Shown here: positions 19,534 to 26,599 of the stretch, piece by piece
Position numbering within the stretch: position 1 is the stretch's first letter
Layout: each line of letters opens with the position of its first letter
DNA from: a virus
IMG/VR virus record: IMGVR_UViG_3300035184_001096
Span: 1 to 37,915 of that record
Length of the DNA: 37,915 nucleotides
Direction: 5' to 3' (one strand)
Position numbers and translations under genes: made by a program
The notes under the pieces: model-generated
The model's input: only the letters and a program-made list of their open reading frames with translations
Told to the model about the DNA's origin: nothing
The model's database searches: none

Positions 19534-20676
19534 TTACATTAATCTGCTAAATGCGTCTTTTATTGAGTTAACTTGGTATTTAGATTCGTTTAATATAGAA
19601 TTGTTTTGTAGTTTTCTTAATTCAGATTCATAAATTCTACCTAGTTCGCTATTTTCTAATTGCCATGATTCTTTTTGAGAAATAGCATCTATTTTTCCTT
19701 GAATCTCTTTTGCTTTATCTTCTTCGCCAGCATCTTGGGCCTTTTTTAACTCTTCTTTATATCCAGCTAATAATTCATCTTGTTTAGTCTTTTCAGCAGC
19801 TTCTTTTTCAGCAGCTTCTTTTTCAGCAGCTTCTTTATCTTTAGCTTCTTTATCTTTAGCTTCTTTATCAGCAGCTTCTTTTTCTTCTCTAGCTGTTTTT
19901 TCTTCTGGAGTTTCTTTATCAGCAGCTTCTTTATCAGCAGCTTCTTTATCAGCAGCAGCCTTCTTATCTTTAGCTTCTTTTTCAGCAGCTTCTTTATCAG
20001 CAGCAGCCTTCTTATCTTTAGCTTCTTTTTCTTCAGGAGTTTCTTTTTCTCCGCCTTTCTTTGCTTTTTCTTCTTCTGCAGCAATAACATCCTTGTTCTT
20101 ATCTTCTAACTCTGCCATAGCAGCATCTTCTTGTTGCGCTTTTTTAGCAAGTTCTTGCATTTTAGCTTTAAGATCTGCCTTTTTCTTTGGATCATCTTCC
20201 ATACCAGTAGTTCTTTTAATAAGCTCAACTTGACCTTTAATTTTTTCTTTAGATAATTTAGAAGCTGTCATTGGACCCTTTCCGCTAAATTTATCATCTA
20301 CCATTTTTTGTAGTTCAGTACCTTGTTCTTTTGCTTTCTTTACTTTGTCTTCTAGAGATTTCTTTTTATCTCCCTTTGCTTTATCTGCAGCAAATTGTAA
20401 ATCACTTGCGTTCATTTTGATTTTATTAACCTTTTGTTGAGATTTAGCAGCTTTCTTACTTGCCATCCAATCTTTAATAAAATCCCCAGCTCCTTCTTCG
20501 ATTTGGTCTTCATCTTCAATTTCTGAAAGTTCTTCAGTTAATTCTGATGCAAGTGTTTCTAGTGAATTGATGATAGTGTCAACGTCACTACTAATAGCGG
20601 TTGGCTGTGATACTTCTGCTTGAACCTCTGATTCTTTAACGGAAGTATACCAATTGTTAAATGATTTAATACTCAT
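19534..20676 (-). CDS. Lys/Glu/Ala repeat protein, candidate head-associated protein
   Basis: A 380-residue protein. The N-terminus (MSIKSFNNWYTSVKES) is followed by an acidic helix. About 55-200 is basic and helical (FIKDWMASKKAAKSQQKVNK). About 205-300 is a low-complexity array of DKEAA, EKEAA and DKKAAA units, likely one long single helix. The C-terminus is LQNNSILNESKYQVNSIKDAFSRLM. It follows the capsid gene, in the place where T4 has gp24, but shows no gp24 similarity. A core or scaffold-like, or internal head protein, is the best guess. The DNA repeat makes the length prone to change. It is between a late-type element and a terminator. Confidence 0.75.
   Translation of the reverse strand: MSIKSFNNWYTSVKESEVQAEVSQPTAISSDVDTIINSLETLASELTEELSEIEDEDQIEEGAGDFIKDWMASKKAAKSQQKVNKIKMNASDLQFAADKAKGDKKKSLEDKVKKAKEQGTELQKMVDDKFSGKGPMTASKLSKEKIKGQVELIKRTTGMEDDPKKKADLKAKMQELAKKAQQEDAAMAELEDKNKDVIAAEEEKAKKGGEKETPEEKEAKDKKAAADKEAAEKEAKDKKAAADKEAADKEAADKETPEEKTAREEKEAADKEAKDKEAKDKEAAEKEAAEKEAAEKTKQDELLAGYKEELKKAQDAGEEDKAKEIQGKIDAISQKESWQLENSELGRIYESELRKLQNNSILNESKYQVNSIKDAFSRLM
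19790..20050. repeat. Tandem 15-bp-type repeat array encoding DKEAA/EKEAA units
   Basis: Imperfect units of the type TTCTTTATCAGCAGC and TTCTTTTTCAGCAGC recur about every 15 bases, mixed with TTCTTTATCTTTAGC units. All keep the reading frame of the host gene. Confidence 0.88.
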
Positions 20677-20808: not shown

Positions 20809-22344
20809 TTATGTTAAAGATACTAAGTTAGTCCAAGCATTAGCCGCAGCAGTAACTGCGAAAGTAATGTACTGAGTTTCAGGATGGAATCCAGCTTCAA
20901 CTAATGCGAATCTTGATTTAACAGCTACTTTAGGAGCCATAGTTCCTTCAGCGATTGTTTGTACAGATTCAGCCATTAAGTAAGGCATAAATACTAATCC
21001 AGGTCCGTTTCCGTCTCCTTTTCTACCAACAGTAATATCTAAAGTACCCCAAGCTAGTGTTGGATCAGTATAGATATTGATTCCAGCAACAGATCCTAAT
21101 GGGTAGATTGCTCCTGCAGCTTGTGCAAAAGTGTTAGCCATTGGGTTTGCAACGAAACCTGAGATAGATTGTAATACTGTAGCAACTTGTGCACCAACTA
21201 CGGCGAAGTTACCAGCTCCTCTACGACCTCTGTTAGCGATTAAGTTAGCAGCAGCTAAAATTTGCGTTAAGATTTGTCTGTGTAAAGAAGGTACAGTTTC
21301 ACCACCATTCGCATTACCTACTGAAGGTAGTGCAAGATCAAAATCAGTTACACCAGCAGTTATAGCAGCGAAGTTAGCTACGTTAGTAGTACCTAAAGCT
21401 CTTAATTTTCCTAAGATGTATTGGTTGATTGATTGAGTTAATTCATTAGTTAAAACAGCTTCAACTTGAGCGACAGCGTCTACTCCGAATTGCTTTAAAT
21501 CTTGAACTTGCTCTCTTGTTACAGCAGCAGCAACTTGGAAAGTTTCAGCTGAAACTGATTTAGAGAATAAAGAAAGACCCATTAATTTGTCTGGAGTACT
21601 TTCACCTTTTTCTCTTGAGAATGGTTGAGAATATCCATCTGCGTTTTCACCGTCTCCAGCAAAACCTCTAATGTGATCTTCTAATCCTTTTACTAATTCA
21701 ACTTTAATAGCTGAAGTTTCTCCAGCAGCAGCAGTTGCAGCAGTAAATAAAGCTGTAACAGTACTGTTGTTAGCATCTACAAAAGCTTCACCAGCCTTTT
21801 CAATTTCATAGATAGTTTCTCCATCAATTCTAGATTTTCTAGATAATGCAGTAGCGTATGTTGCATCTGCTAAAGCAGGGTTAGAAACGATTACCGTTGC
21901 TCCCGTTGCAGTTGTAGTTACAACTGAATATGCTTTTACGTATGTTGGAGTAACGTCGTTATTAAGTTTACCACCTTCGTATACGAAGTCTAAGTAAGAT
22001 AATAATCCCATTGGTCCAGCCATAGGTACTACAGGTACTAAATCAAGTCCGATAGTTTGTGCAGCAACTTGCATTGCTAAAGGTAATAATGAAGGTGACT
22101 TGTCTCCAGAACCGTTAACAGAAGAAACTCCGTTTGCAATTCCTGAAGGTAAAGTTGTAGCTCCCATACCTGCTAGATTCATTGAAGGATCTAAAGACAT
22201 ATATGAAGCATCTTCATAAAGTTTGTGGTTGTGACAGTAAGTCGACATCCATGCTAATTTCTCAGCATCGTTGATACCAGTCGCAGACTCGATAATCGGA
22301 GCCCATGTTGATCTGATTTCAGATTCGTTAATTAAATTTGCCAT
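20809..22344 (-). CDS. 23: Major capsid protein, gp23-like
   Basis: A 511-residue protein; T4 gp23 has 521. The N-terminus INESEIRSTWAPIIESATGI matches the prohead-type start that the gp21 protease removes in T4. Family segments: LVPVVPMAGPMGLLSYLDFVY (near 99-119), a KVELVKGLEDH region, LTNELTQSINQYILGKLRALG, RRGAGNFAVVGAQVATVLQS (near 375-394), and the C-terminal GPGLVFMPYLMAESV ... RFALVEAGFHPETQYI. It forms the hexamers of the head. No separate vertex protein gp24 was recognised nearby. The gene follows a 116-nt structured leader with a GATATATAG element, and has a strong terminator. Confidence 0.95.
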   Translation of the reverse strand: MANLINESEIRSTWAPIIESATGINDAEKLAWMSTYCHNHKLYEDASYMSLDPSMNLAGMGATTLPSGIANGVSSVNGSGDKSPSLLPLAMQVAAQTIGLDLVPVVPMAGPMGLLSYLDFVYEGGKLNNDVTPTYVKAYSVVTTTATGATVIVSNPALADATYATALSRKSRIDGETIYEIEKAGEAFVDANNSTVTALFTAATAAAGETSAIKVELVKGLEDHIRGFAGDGENADGYSQPFSREKGESTPDKLMGLSLFSKSVSAETFQVAAAVTREQVQDLKQFGVDAVAQVEAVLTNELTQSINQYILGKLRALGTTNVANFAAITAGVTDFDLALPSVGNANGGETVPSLHRQILTQILAAANLIANRGRRGAGNFAVVGAQVATVLQSISGFVANPMANTFAQAAGAIYPLGSVAGINIYTDPTLAWGTLDITVGRKGDGNGPGLVFMPYLMAESVQTIAEGTMAPKVAVKSRFALVEAGFHPETQYITFAVTAAANAWTNLVSLT

Positions 22345-22522: not shown

Positions 22523-22550
22523 AAGAGAAGGATGTTTAAGTCCTTCTCTT
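22523..22550 (-). terminator. Strong hairpin after the protease-scaffold gene
   Basis: Perfect 10-bp arms AAGAGAAGGA and TCCTTCTCTT with an eight-base loop, 15 nt after the stop of the gene at 22566. It lacks a clean T run, so it may be an RNA processing or 3'-protecting hairpin and not a classical terminator. Confidence 0.55.
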
Positions 22551-22565
22551 ATAGATTATATATTG

Positions 22566-23954
22566 TTATTTTTTAAATTTTGCTGCTAATTGAGCTGCAA
22601 TATCGGTAGTATCGTATCCTACAGTAGATTTAGTTTCTTCTGCTTTAGATTCATTTAACATTTCTAACTTTTCCATTACTGAAGCAGTTTCTCTAAGATC
22701 TCTTGTTTGCCAAAAGTTTCTTACTTGATATTCAGTACTTAATTTGTGCATTTTAGACTGAGCCATGATTTGTCCTTTTTTACCTTCAGATAATTTAGTC
22801 CAAGCTTCATGATATTCAGATGGCATCATTGAAATTACAGGTAATGTAGTTTCTTCAACAGATTTAGCACCCATTAAAGAATTACCCCATAATCCCATTA
22901 TTTGTCCTTCAGTTAAATAACCTCTTCCTTCGATTGCTCCAGATACTGTTGATTTTTCTTCAGTAGATAATTCGTTGAATTCATTTCTCTTTGATTCAGA
23001 AATAAACTTAAAGAATGCTGGATCAGAGTTTACTTTAATTTTAGAGCTTTCAATTAGGGCTTCTAATTTAGAAGTAATTGAATTTCTATAAGCTTCCATT
23101 GCGTCTTCTTTGATTTCTTCACCTTCAGCATCTCCTTCGCCTTCAAGCTCATCTTCTAATTCTTCTCCTTTATCGTCTTCAATAGAACCTTTTACGTATT
23201 TAGTATCATCAGCATCTTTAGATGGTTCAGTTACGTCTTCAGTTTCATCTTCTAATTCTTCAGCAGGAACTCCAGCTTCATCTTCTTTAATTGCTTCTTC
23301 TTCAGATTCTTTTATTTCTTCGCCTTCAGCATCTCCTTCGCCTTCAAGCTCATCTTCTAATTCTTCTCCTTTGTCGTCTTCAATAGCACCATGCTTTAAT
23401 TTGTTTCCATCTGCGTCTTTAGAATCTACAGTTACGTCAGTAGAATCATCTTCAGCTTCGATTTCTTCAATTTCTTTACCAGCTTCGTCTTCAACGATTA
23501 AGTTAGTGTTTACTGTTTCAGCAACGTATTCAGCGTATTCAGTTACTTTTTCTAAGTTTTCTTTTAAATAATCAATATACTTAGTCATGTTTTCATGAGT
23601 AGTAGCTCCATCATTATAAGATTCTGCTAAATAGTTTGTGTAATTTTTAATTTGATCAACTCCTTCAGCAATATGCTCAGAATATTGAATAGAATTATCT
23701 AGTGTTTCCGCTAGTTTTTCAGAATAAGATATTGATTTATCTGTTTTTTCTGCAACATTTTCTGAATACTCTATTGATTGATCTAGTTTTTCAGCTAAAT
23801 ACTCAGTGTATTCTTTTAATGATGTTAGTTGAGATTCAGTTGACTCAGCGTCTTTTGAAGAATTCATTACCTCTTTGATGGTTTTAATTTCTTCTGAAAG
23901 ATATTGAGAGTACTTGTTAAAATCTTCAACAGTAATAAATTTTGACTCTGCCAT
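22566..23954 (-). CDS. Putative scaffold-only product from an internal start
   Basis: An alternative in-frame start within the protease-scaffold gene: ATGGCAGAGTC at 23954, preceded by AAAGAAACAAAA, the same A-rich leader and ATGGC start seen at the capsid gene. It would give a 462-residue protein (MAESKFITVEDFNKYSQYLS...) without the protease domain. Nested protease/scaffold genes sharing a C-terminus are known in other phages (for example lambda C/Nu3). Expression here is an inference from the start context. Confidence 0.5.
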   Translation of the reverse strand: MAESKFITVEDFNKYSQYLSEEIKTIKEVMNSSKDAESTESQLTSLKEYTEYLAEKLDQSIEYSENVAEKTDKSISYSEKLAETLDNSIQYSEHIAEGVDQIKNYTNYLAESYNDGATTHENMTKYIDYLKENLEKVTEYAEYVAETVNTNLIVEDEAGKEIEEIEAEDDSTDVTVDSKDADGNKLKHGAIEDDKGEELEDELEGEGDAEGEEIKESEEEAIKEDEAGVPAEELEDETEDVTEPSKDADDTKYVKGSIEDDKGEELEDELEGEGDAEGEEIKEDAMEAYRNSITSKLEALIESSKIKVNSDPAFFKFISESKRNEFNELSTEEKSTVSGAIEGRGYLTEGQIMGLWGNSLMGAKSVEETTLPVISMMPSEYHEAWTKLSEGKKGQIMAQSKMHKLSTEYQVRNFWQTRDLRETASVMEKLEMLNESKAEETKSTVGYDTTDIAAQLAAKFKK

Positions 23955-24539
23955 TTTTGTTTCTTTTTTATTTTCTGTGGTTAATGTTTCATTAGTATTA
24001 TTTATCTCGTAAATAAAGAGGTTGTCTTCGTTGACGAATCCATAAGATTCGTTAACTCTTTTAAGCTCTGCATTTTCAAATCCAGGATCAGCAACTAAAT
24101 CATACGTAAATAATTGTTTGATTTTTACAGTTCCATTAGATTCAACAGCTCCAGCTGCTCTACTTGATATTTGAAGAGGAACTCCAGCATCAACTAACGC
24201 CTTTGCCTGTCTTCCTGCTTCTGTATCTAATAGTCTGATACGACCTTTTACCTGTTTGGTATCTTTGTCATATGTTAATTCCTCAATCATGTGTGATACA
24301 TTTTTAAGAGATACATCAAAATTAGCAGGGTGATCTAATTCACCTAGTAATTTTGAAGCTTTGATTTTTGCTTGAAGAGATTCAATTTGAGGAAGATATT
24401 CGTCTTCTGTGTAAATTCTATTATTCTTGTTCTTTTTGTCGATTTCTCCAAAAATACCTTCAAGAATGTAAATTCCACCATCCTGCTTAAATTCTAACTC
24501 AGTAGTTGATCTTTCGAGGATCAGTAAATTATTAATCAT
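22566..24539 (-). CDS. 21: Prohead protease gp21-like fused to a scaffold (gp22-like) region
   Basis: A 657-residue protein. Residues 1-165 are a T4-type prohead protease (U35-like): YILEGIFGEID, catalytic-type His70 in GELDHP (66-71), VSHMIEEL, Ser125/126 in ISSRAAG (124-130), and DLVADPGF (147-154). T4 gp21 has about 212 residues, yet here the frame runs on. About 196-345 is a coiled coil with repeated YxEYLAEKLDxSI-type units. About 350-475 is very acidic, with two near-identical copies of EDDKGEELEDELEGEGDAEG. The C-terminal part (490-657) is helical. This second part looks like the scaffold (gp22) made separately in T4. Met196 (ATG at 23954-23952, after AGAAACAAAA) could start a scaffold-only product. 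A late element lies 25 nt upstream. Confidence 0.85.
   Translation of the reverse strand: MINNLLILERSTTELEFKQDGGIYILEGIFGEIDKKNKNNRIYTEDEYLPQIESLQAKIKASKLLGELDHPANFDVSLKNVSHMIEELTYDKDTKQVKGRIRLLDTEAGRQAKALVDAGVPLQISSRAAGAVESNGTVKIKQLFTYDLVADPGFENAELKRVNESYGFVNEDNLFIYEINNTNETLTTENKKETKMAESKFITVEDFNKYSQYLSEEIKTIKEVMNSSKDAESTESQLTSLKEYTEYLAEKLDQSIEYSENVAEKTDKSISYSEKLAETLDNSIQYSEHIAEGVDQIKNYTNYLAESYNDGATTHENMTKYIDYLKENLEKVTEYAEYVAETVNTNLIVEDEAGKEIEEIEAEDDSTDVTVDSKDADGNKLKHGAIEDDKGEELEDELEGEGDAEGEEIKESEEEAIKEDEAGVPAEELEDETEDVTEPSKDADDTKYVKGSIEDDKGEELEDELEGEGDAEGEEIKEDAMEAYRNSITSKLEALIESSKIKVNSDPAFFKFISESKRNEFNELSTEEKSTVSGAIEGRGYLTEGQIMGLWGNSLMGAKSVEETTLPVISMMPSEYHEAWTKLSEGKKGQIMAQSKMHKLSTEYQVRNFWQTRDLRETASVMEKLEMLNESKAEETKSTVGYDTTDIAAQLAAKFKK
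23113..23189. repeat. 77-bp direct repeat in scaffold region, copy 1
   Basis: It matches 23314-23390 at all but three positions, 201 bp (67 codons) apart. It encodes the acidic EDDKGEELEDELEGEGDAEG unit. Confidence 0.88.
23314..23390. repeat. 77-bp direct repeat in scaffold region, copy 2
   Basis: Partner of 23113-23189. The near identity, including third codon positions, indicates recent duplication or gene conversion, not protein-level convergence. Confidence 0.88.
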
Positions 24540-24610: not shown

Positions 24611-24970
24611 TTAAATATCCGCTAATGGATCTTCTTCCTCTTCTCCACCTTCAGCTTCTTCTTCAGCTTCAACTTCTTCAGCGTTCTTTTCTTCAGTGTA
24701 TTCTAAATATGCCTTTAGTAAGGTTGACATATCTTCATCGGTGAATTCACCATTACCATACTCATCATAGAAATATTGCTTAAATTCTTTTTCAGTTTTG
24801 CTGTTTATAGCAACTCCAAGAATTTCTGTAGATTTAATTTCAGTACCATTATCTAATGTAATATCATCGATTAATACCTTTGAGTCTTCTCCAGCTGAAA
24901 TGGCATCTTCTTTCAAAGATTTCTTTTTTAAGTCTGAAGAAAATTCTTCAAATGTTTTAATAGTTTTCAT
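24611..24970 (-). CDS. Small acidic prohead-core protein (gp67/gp68 position)
   Basis: A 119-residue protein. It starts MKTIKTFEEFSSDLKKKSLKED, a short amphipathic basic start like that of the Lys/Glu/Ala protein. A middle domain follows (EILGVAINSKTEKEFKQYFYDEYGNG) and then an extremely acidic tail (NAEEVEAEEEAEGGEEEEDP). It lies between portal and prohead protease, where T4 has the small core proteins gp67 and gp68; T4 gp67 also has an acidic tail. Sequence similarity itself is not evident, so the role in the prohead core is inferred from place and composition. It has its own late element. Confidence 0.72.
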   Translation of the reverse strand: MKTIKTFEEFSSDLKKKSLKEDAISAGEDSKVLIDDITLDNGTEIKSTEILGVAINSKTEKEFKQYFYDEYGNGEFTDEDMSTLLKAYLEYTEEKNAEEVEAEEEAEGGEEEEDPLADI

Positions 24971-25003: not shown

Positions 25004-26599
25004 TTACATTCCCATGTCCATCGGGTCAACTTCAGGTTCTTCAGCGTCTTTTGCTGCTTGCCTTTGTTTATAAGCTTCGTTTGCAGCTTTATCATCTGGA
25101 CTTAGTTTTAAATATCTGTCTACTAGGAATTCCATATTAAAGTATGGCATCTCTTCCATCGTTACTGGATCAGTTTTCATTAATGAATCTTGCATAGTTC
25201 CAATAAAGTCTAATCTTTTCTCCATTATCTCCATAGTCTTTAATTCAGCGAACATATTTTCTTCGTGGAATTGTAGTGCTATTTGAGTTTTAAACCCTGC
25301 ATCATCTTTAAATTCAGGGTATTTTAAACACATTTGAATCCATAATGGTTTAACCAGCACTTCTTGGAATGATGATCGAAGTCTCTTAATAAACTTAGAG
25401 AACTTAATTTCATCTCTAATCATACCATCAGCAGCCAGGTTAAAGTCTCCTCCACCATCTTCATACATAAATCTATTATATGGTATTTTAGAAACTTGCT
25501 TTAATTTATCAGTAAAGTATTTAAGTGCTTCAGTATCATTAATATCTGGTCCTTCACCACCTAATGTTTCAATCTCTGGTGTCTCTCCGTCCTTACTAGG
25601 CAACCAATATTCCTTATTGAATTGTAACATTGGTTTTCCATTAGTGGTCAGATTCGCACTGTCCCAATCAAAATCTACAATCTCTTTGTAGTTATTCATT
25701 AATTGTGCAAGTGATTGTTTTGCTCTTGTTTTAGATTTACCTCCAACTGGTATAATGAACTTCATTCTATAAGATGAGTTTGTAACAGCCCAAATAACTC
25801 TGGTATGTTCCATAATTCTCATCAAGTTAAATGCTCTTACAAGTCTTTCTAAATATGAAACTCTAGACGCTGTTGTAATTGAAGAGTATGAGATGTATAT
25901 AATTTGAGAATCATATAGTTTTCTCTCTTTCATTGGATCATCTTTAAATTGGATCCATACTTTTTTACCATCTTCATGGTTATATCCTGGTACTAATGTA
26001 ATAGGGTCAATTTCTTTAAAACCTATAATTTCAGTTTGTTCTGGGTTGTATATAATTTCAAATGATAAGTAACCATCAATTAACCATTTTCTAAAGAAGT
26101 ACCATGCTGATTGATCCTGATTGAATCCAAAATACTGGTAAATTTCTCTATATGATTTATTAAGATACTTTTGAACCTCTTCTGAGATTTCCATTCCAAC
26201 TATTTCTGGATTGGCAAAGAAGTTTTTATTGTCAAATACTATTGACTCATCACAAAGAATATCTAATATGTCTTCAATTTCATCATGTTGCGAGAATTTT
26301 CTAAGCTCATCTCTTTTTGCCTGGTACTGTTGATCAAAGAATGGTACGTTTTTACGCATATTCGTATCAGCCATTGAAAGGGCTGCGAATGCACCATACA
26401 TATCATCACTGTCTGTTCCCAGTGGATTCATTTGGCCGTAACCAAATTGATCCTCTACTGGACCAATTGCCTGTGATTGTCTAAGTACTAAATCGTCATA
26501 GTACATTCCAAAAGACGATAGCTTTTTAAGTGAATCGCTTAATGTGAATGTTCTTTTTCCAGTACTCAATGGACCATTTCTCTCTACAAATCCTGCCAT
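25004..26599 (-). CDS. 20: Portal protein, gp20-like
   Basis: A 531-residue protein; T4 gp20 has 524. Recognisable family parts: RDELRKFSQHDEIEDILDILCDESIV near 112-137, YFFRKWLIDGYLSFEIIYN (near 166-184), GFKEIDPITLVPG, the stem region with YKEIVDFDW, and the crown region LKQVSKIPYNRFMYEDGGGDF (near 367-387), followed by EIKFSKFIKRLRSSFQEVLVKPL. Twelve copies form the ring at one head vertex through which gp17 pumps DNA. The C-terminus is acidic and Met-rich. It heads the head module 20-(core)-21/22-23, the T4 order. The late element is 22 nt upstream. Confidence 0.95.
   Translation of the reverse strand: MAGFVERNGPLSTGKRTFTLSDSLKKLSSFGMYYDDLVLRQSQAIGPVEDQFGYGQMNPLGTDSDDMYGAFAALSMADTNMRKNVPFFDQQYQAKRDELRKFSQHDEIEDILDILCDESIVFDNKNFFANPEIVGMEISEEVQKYLNKSYREIYQYFGFNQDQSAWYFFRKWLIDGYLSFEIIYNPEQTEIIGFKEIDPITLVPGYNHEDGKKVWIQFKDDPMKERKLYDSQIIYISYSSITTASRVSYLERLVRAFNLMRIMEHTRVIWAVTNSSYRMKFIIPVGGKSKTRAKQSLAQLMNNYKEIVDFDWDSANLTTNGKPMLQFNKEYWLPSKDGETPEIETLGGEGPDINDTEALKYFTDKLKQVSKIPYNRFMYEDGGGDFNLAADGMIRDEIKFSKFIKRLRSSFQEVLVKPLWIQMCLKYPEFKDDAGFKTQIALQFHEENMFAELKTMEIMEKRLDFIGTMQDSLMKTDPVTMEEMPYFNMEFLVDRYLKLSPDDKAANEAYKQRQAAKDAEEPEVDPMDMGM

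Follow-up and report, generated by a model that had tools for sequence, protein, structure and literature searches.

The window, the whole 37,915-nt stretch of IMG/VR record IMGVR_UViG_3300035184_001096 that was analysed, carries a group of phage head genes on its minus strand, among them a single long ORF flanked by the portal gene (upstream) and the major capsid gene (downstream). The features of the locus are as follows:

20809..22344, minus strand: major capsid protein (gp23), downstream neighbour (Pfam Gp23, E=1.3e-41)
22566..24539, minus strand: protease-scaffold fusion ORF of 657 aa, ATG start, TAA stop, a single open frame
22569..23102, minus strand: conserved helical C-terminal domain with a YQVxNFWxTRDLR motif (alignment A3, 22 sequences)
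22569..23954, minus strand: predicted separate scaffold product of 462 aa, from the internal ATG to the shared stop, directly upstream of the capsid gene
23103..23492, minus strand: acidic low-complexity stretch (seen in the translation)
23517..23810, minus strand: 14-residue repeats of the YSEYLAEKLDxSIx type, several with L/I-A-E, spaced by 14 residues
23952..23954, minus strand: putative internal start codon ATG (Met196), kept by all 101 of the anchored fused relatives
23955..24005, minus strand: variable, A-rich linker, residues 179-195, which would also be the leader of the internal start
24006..24014, minus strand: IYE-178, predicted protease/scaffold cleavage site
24006..24539, minus strand: protease domain, residues 1-178, T4 gp21-type (Peptidase S77; Pfam, PHROG and 5jbl matches)
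24513..24521, minus strand: ILE-9, predicted N-terminal self-cleavage site (L/I-x-E motif, same residue as LIE-9 of T4 gp21)
25004..26599, minus strand: portal protein (gp20), upstream neighbour (Pfam Portal_T4, E=8.6e-69)

Between the fusion ORF and the portal gene lies an acidic 119-aa ORF (24970..24611), and the resulting order of portal, small ORF, fusion and capsid corresponds to 20-(67/68)-21-22-23 of T4. A 10-bp inverted repeat (22523-22550) stands directly 3' of the fusion stop and before the capsid gene; it resembles a terminator but has no T-run in the sense of the fusion gene. Beyond the capsid gene, a 380-aa ORF (19534-20676, minus strand) contains long KEAADKEAAEKE-type repeats and had no family match; it perhaps encodes an internal head protein. 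Judging by its relatives and its type of leader, this T4-type phage probably has a host among the Bacteroidota.

Residues 1-195 matched the Pfam Peptidase S77 profile well above its curated cut-off (E=3.5e-12; 46.7 bits against 27), and the protease half also matched PHROG 207 'head maturation protease' (E=1.8e-43) and the solved T4 protease structure 5jbl (E=9e-4). His70 (in GELDHP) and Ser126 (in SSRAAG) are invariant across an alignment of 14 diverse sequences and are the candidate catalytic residues; against 5jbl, Ser126 pairs with a Ser and His70 with an Ala of the deposited chain. The predicted structure of the protease domain was poor (pLDDT 45) and was left out of the argument.

The remainder of the protein, residues 196-657, consists of a short start segment, the 14-residue repeats, the acidic low-complexity stretch and the helical C-terminal domain. 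The repeat spacing of 14 was found in all representatives and is visible in the DNA as a 42-nt period, while the length of the acidic stretch differs strongly between relatives. Structure prediction gave an all-helical C-terminal domain (pLDDT 70), and a motif resembling YQVxNFWxTRDLR also occurs in proteins of PTm1, pT24, Lak and megaphages. Compared with a viral structure library, the model of this domain matched only two proteins at E <= 0.001, one of them a 657-aa T4-type prohead protease entry; PTm1 and pT24 in the same library gave weak scores. A 389-aa uncharacterised protein of Virus NIOZ-UU157 (a database entry) also resembles the domain and might be a split or fragmentary scaffold.

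Neither Pfam T4_CASP nor the PHROG gp22 family matched residues 196-657, and profile comparison gave gp22 homology of the scaffold half a probability of 0.1%. The scaffold half nevertheless occupies the gp22 position, between the protease domain and the major capsid gene. Because gp22 homology is undetectable, we infer its role as head scaffold from position, composition and cleavage-site content. The initial annotation had proposed that one 657-codon frame holds the functions of both gp21 and gp22. The frame and the S77 domain bear this out, while the gp22 half of the proposal stands by position and not by homology.

T4 gp21 cleaves after L/I-x-E and itself has such a motif, LIE-9, at residue 9 (PMC9026906). 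All representatives have [IL]xE close to the N-terminus, and nearly all of 42 representatives have [IL][YF]E in the linker, the exceptions being L032 (IYD) and L085 (IFQ). In the scaffold the count of [IL]xE is roughly doubled (708 versus 368±17 in shuffled sequence), which is suggestive only of protease sites, as helical repeats may fix the Glu positions otherwise. The major capsid protein has an L-Y-E motif at residue 44, and LYE-43/44 is kept in most relatives. Since [IL]xE at residues 9 and 178 and the excess in the scaffold agree with the specificity of T4 gp21, they count for a nested protease/scaffold gene, as does the T4-like order of portal, small ORF, fusion and capsid.

At the domain junction, ATGGCAGAG starts at 23954 with Met196 and is immediately preceded by GAAAATAAAAAAGAAACAAAA. 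It had been claimed that this leader and ATGGC start are like those of the virion genes, and the likeness holds for the major capsid (TTTTAAACAAA ATGGCAAAT), portal (ATGGCAGGA) and tail sheath (ATGGCACTT) genes as well as for a 184-aa ORF beside the sheath gene (ATGGCTTTA). Phages of Bacteroidota are without Shine-Dalgarno sequences. Initiation in Flavobacterium johnsoniae, likewise without Shine-Dalgarno sequences, is favoured by A at -3, -6, -12 and -13, and AUG is under-represented near its starts (PMC6847099). The window leader has A at all four positions, and only 0.15% of the in-frame windows of its own gene are more A-rich than its 21 nt. A makes up 70% of the 20 nt before the Met, compared with 40% of the gene and 63% of the leader of the full-length ORF. 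At -3, 93% of the internal Met codons have A and none has T, against 31% with A for 330 other in-frame ATGs.

The fused frame as in the window is present in 101 anchored loci, that is, those where the scaffold beginning could be placed, and all 101 keep a Met at the domain junction, at most 12 residues before the scaffold beginning. In a junction alignment of 42 representatives the Met is the sole column without variation, with a linker that varies in both length and sequence. Of the three scans behind these loci, two used patterns distant from the junction, so the conservation of the Met was not built into the search, although the scans rank by similarity to the window protein.

As Lys, Asn, Glu and Thr are frequent in the linker, its A-richness could be a by-product of the amino acids, and synonymous codons were therefore resampled from each gene (2000 resamplings). 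The seven codons preceding the Met contain 597 A against 534±6 expected (0/2000 resamplings as high), 109 T against 141±6 and 4 AUG against 8.3±1.7, with the relatedness of the loci inflating these leader statistics. In a sliding ten-codon window along the aligned genes, the synonymous A-excess is highest at the Met, with z=12.8; the genes have no second peak, the largest outside value, 5.0, being that of the adjoining window. The five megaphage sequences retain the Met but have a weak leader signal (z=2.0). The prediction that the ATG and its leader would be conserved in relatives is thus upheld: both are kept through the clade, with synonymous sites under selection. The sole synonymous peak, the Met in 101/101 and the rank of the leader among the gene's own windows also place its resemblance to virion gene leaders beyond chance. 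A nested start is supported because the Met is invariant while the codons before it vary and are under selection at the nucleotide level. Such localisation of a synonymous signal to a single point is hard to explain otherwise and very probably reflects a translation start, which would very probably yield an additional scaffold-only protein.

IMG/VR contigs carry the same fused frame at identities from 99% down to about 48%, and so do unannotated megaphage genomes of 462-735 kb. Scanning with the C-terminal domain alone fetched 80 loci, 78 of them fused and 2 cut by a contig end, with no split gene among them; relatives were ranked by similarity to the window protein, so those with split genes could be under-represented. 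A single ORF that joins an S77-type domain to a related C-terminal motif also occurs in Tenacibaculum phages PTm1 and pT24, Lak phages and Chryseobacterium phage MA9V-1. The PTm1 ORF sits just before the capsid gene, and the PTm1 and pT24 entries are named 'prohead core scaffolding protein and protease', by annotation only. Separate genes are found in Sphingomonas phage PAU, Pseudomonas phage PA5oct and cyanophages. The 'scaffolding' product of PAU had no family match and so gives no direction, fusion or fission. The fusion is common to a wide range of jumbo and mega phages, of which several are known on Bacteroidota. It was first noted for this phage alone; it is confirmed there and is not unique to it. 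The fusion itself is already in databases, for some phages as a single gene, while the open-access literature yielded neither a paper describing it nor a description of the nested start.

Two loci differ in their architecture. L023:3898-4884 has almost the same protease half as the window, with clear divergence after about residue 160, beyond which the 14-residue repeats are more regular than those of the window; this looks like recombination near the domain junction. In MA9V-1 (L041:3911-7954) the ORF encodes 1347 aa, with an N-terminal S77-type protease and DUF5856 in the middle, and ends a short distance ahead of the next large ORF; this fusion is similar in kind but far larger.

The locus thus has the protease first in one frame and a conserved in-frame ATG at the junction to a scaffold identified by position. 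We consider it to be a nested protease/scaffold gene in a T4-type head module with a probability of about 0.84, the start use, product ratio, scaffold function and cleavages being predicted from the sequence. Initiation at 24539 would give a small amount of the 657-residue protease-scaffold fusion, whose scaffold part would bring the protease into the assembling core. Initiation at the A-rich Met196 site (23954) would give the 462-residue scaffold alone, probably in excess, to form the bulk of the core beneath the capsid shell. On completion of the prohead, the protease would free itself by cuts at ILE-9 and IYE-178, digest the scaffold to small peptides at many L/I-x-E sites, several of them 14 residues apart, and trim the capsid protein near LYE-44, making space for DNA. 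The T4 core contains about 55 gp21 versus 580 gp22 (PMC9958956). A fusion alone would give equal numbers of protease and scaffold, and the internal start would therefore restore a T4-like imbalance. The initial annotation spoke of a different head-assembly strategy; the encoding does differ, but the result may be as in T4, with little protease and much scaffold.

It is unlikely that initiation at the internal start takes place mainly on a separate transcript with a promoter inside the protease coding region. Herpesvirus UL26.5 has its own transcript from a promoter so placed. In the protease-scaffold linker of the window, the octamer GATAAATA (23999-24006, minus strand), 52 nt before the internal ATG, is one base off the T4 late promoter TATAAATA and is a possible internal promoter. 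Many relatives have GAG and ATA codons at this site; a match of at least 7/8 occurs in 24 of 42 relatives against 4.1±1.6 by synonymous resampling, and ATA encodes the Ile there in 16 cases, with 4.3 expected. However, several permuted AT-rich octamers are equally enriched upstream of ORFs, the octamer is absent from 18 of the 42 loci, and related loci are not independent. Moreover, a promoter here would supplement the internal start and not replace it.

A broader scenario, which we regard as rather improbable, is that a large T4-type jumbo/mega phage lineage (to 735 kb) carries a herpesvirus-like nested gene with a promoter inside the protease region and a scaffold of arrayed 14-residue repeats, several of which contain a protease site and whose number has grown with genome and head size. 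The window has 6 repeats, the 635-735 kb megaphages (L031, L032, L033, L034) have 10-12, and phages outside that size range have 5-9, with only 6 recognised in the 462-kb phage (L030) and no trend with genome size among the 110-236 kb contigs. A tie between repeat number and genome or head size is a possible lead, with few independent points and uncertain completeness of the contigs.

It is quite improbable that the C-terminal half is another core or internal head protein and that the true scaffold is encoded elsewhere, for example by the 380-aa (20676..19534) or the 119-aa ORF. The absence of sequence homology to gp22 and the presence of these further acidic or repetitive ORFs beside the head genes would fit such a reading. 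Against it, the C-terminal half lies exactly where gp22 is expected, is long, helical, acidic and rich in sites of the neighbouring protease, and has relatives in PTm1 and pT24 that databases name as prohead core scaffold, though by annotation only.

Phage P2 gpO has been described as protease and scaffold in one chain that separate by self-cleavage. That the phage similarly makes only the full-length, self-cleaving fusion, with Met196 kept for reasons of the protein, is very doubtful: the motif IYE-178 between the domains agrees with it, and PTm1, pT24, MA9V-1 and Lak, in which no conserved A-rich in-frame ATG is evident at the junction, indicate that a fusion can work without an internal start, but a protein-level reason fails for the synonymous A-excess and the avoidance of T and AUG just before the Met, and leaves an invariant Met after a variable linker unexplained.

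If the gene is nested as we propose, gene callers would miss the main scaffold of many jumbo and mega phages, several of them on Bacteroidota, because protease and scaffold have one frame and one stop codon in common. Testing synonymous sites in this way is a cheap route to other nested starts in Bacteroidota phages.

Among the systems compared, the megaphages LR756500-LR756504 and LR745206 (462-735 kb) share the fusion, the junction Met and the 14-residue repeats with the window, but at 32-38% identity, with a less A-rich leader and up to 12 recognised repeats. PTm1 (565 aa), pT24 (527 aa), Lak and MA9V-1 share the single ORF with an N-terminal S77 domain and an FW-motif C-terminal region, but are without repeats of the window type as far as noticed. 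T4 is the textbook case of protease and scaffold made from separate genes. Its genes 21 and 22 are like the window locus in the S77 protease, the portal-to-capsid position, the L/I-x-E motif and the N-terminal site at residue 9; they differ in being separate, whereas the window phage has one shared frame with a scaffold half of no detectable homology to gp22. T4 gene 21 does have a second start, Met45, which gives a shorter, essential protease (PMC9026906). The product of the internal start in the window phage would instead be the scaffold.

Nesting of scaffold within protease is known from herpesviruses and phage lambda, not from T4. In lambda C/Nu3, as proposed here, the scaffold is translated from an in-frame start inside the protease gene; the lambda protease is of another family, and lambda is not T4-type. 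In HSV-1, UL26 encodes a 635-residue protease-scaffold chain cleaved after residue 247, and UL26.5, which starts within UL26, supplies the bulk of the scaffold, only about 10% being derived from UL26 (PMC12474303). The window fusion is like UL26/UL26.5 in domain order, size and predicted inter-domain cleavage, a likeness of arrangement; herpesviruses are animal viruses, and the separate transcript and C-terminal release site are features of theirs. The herpesvirus and lambda solution in a T4-type head module suggests either convergence on a protease-to-scaffold ratio or an old nested form.
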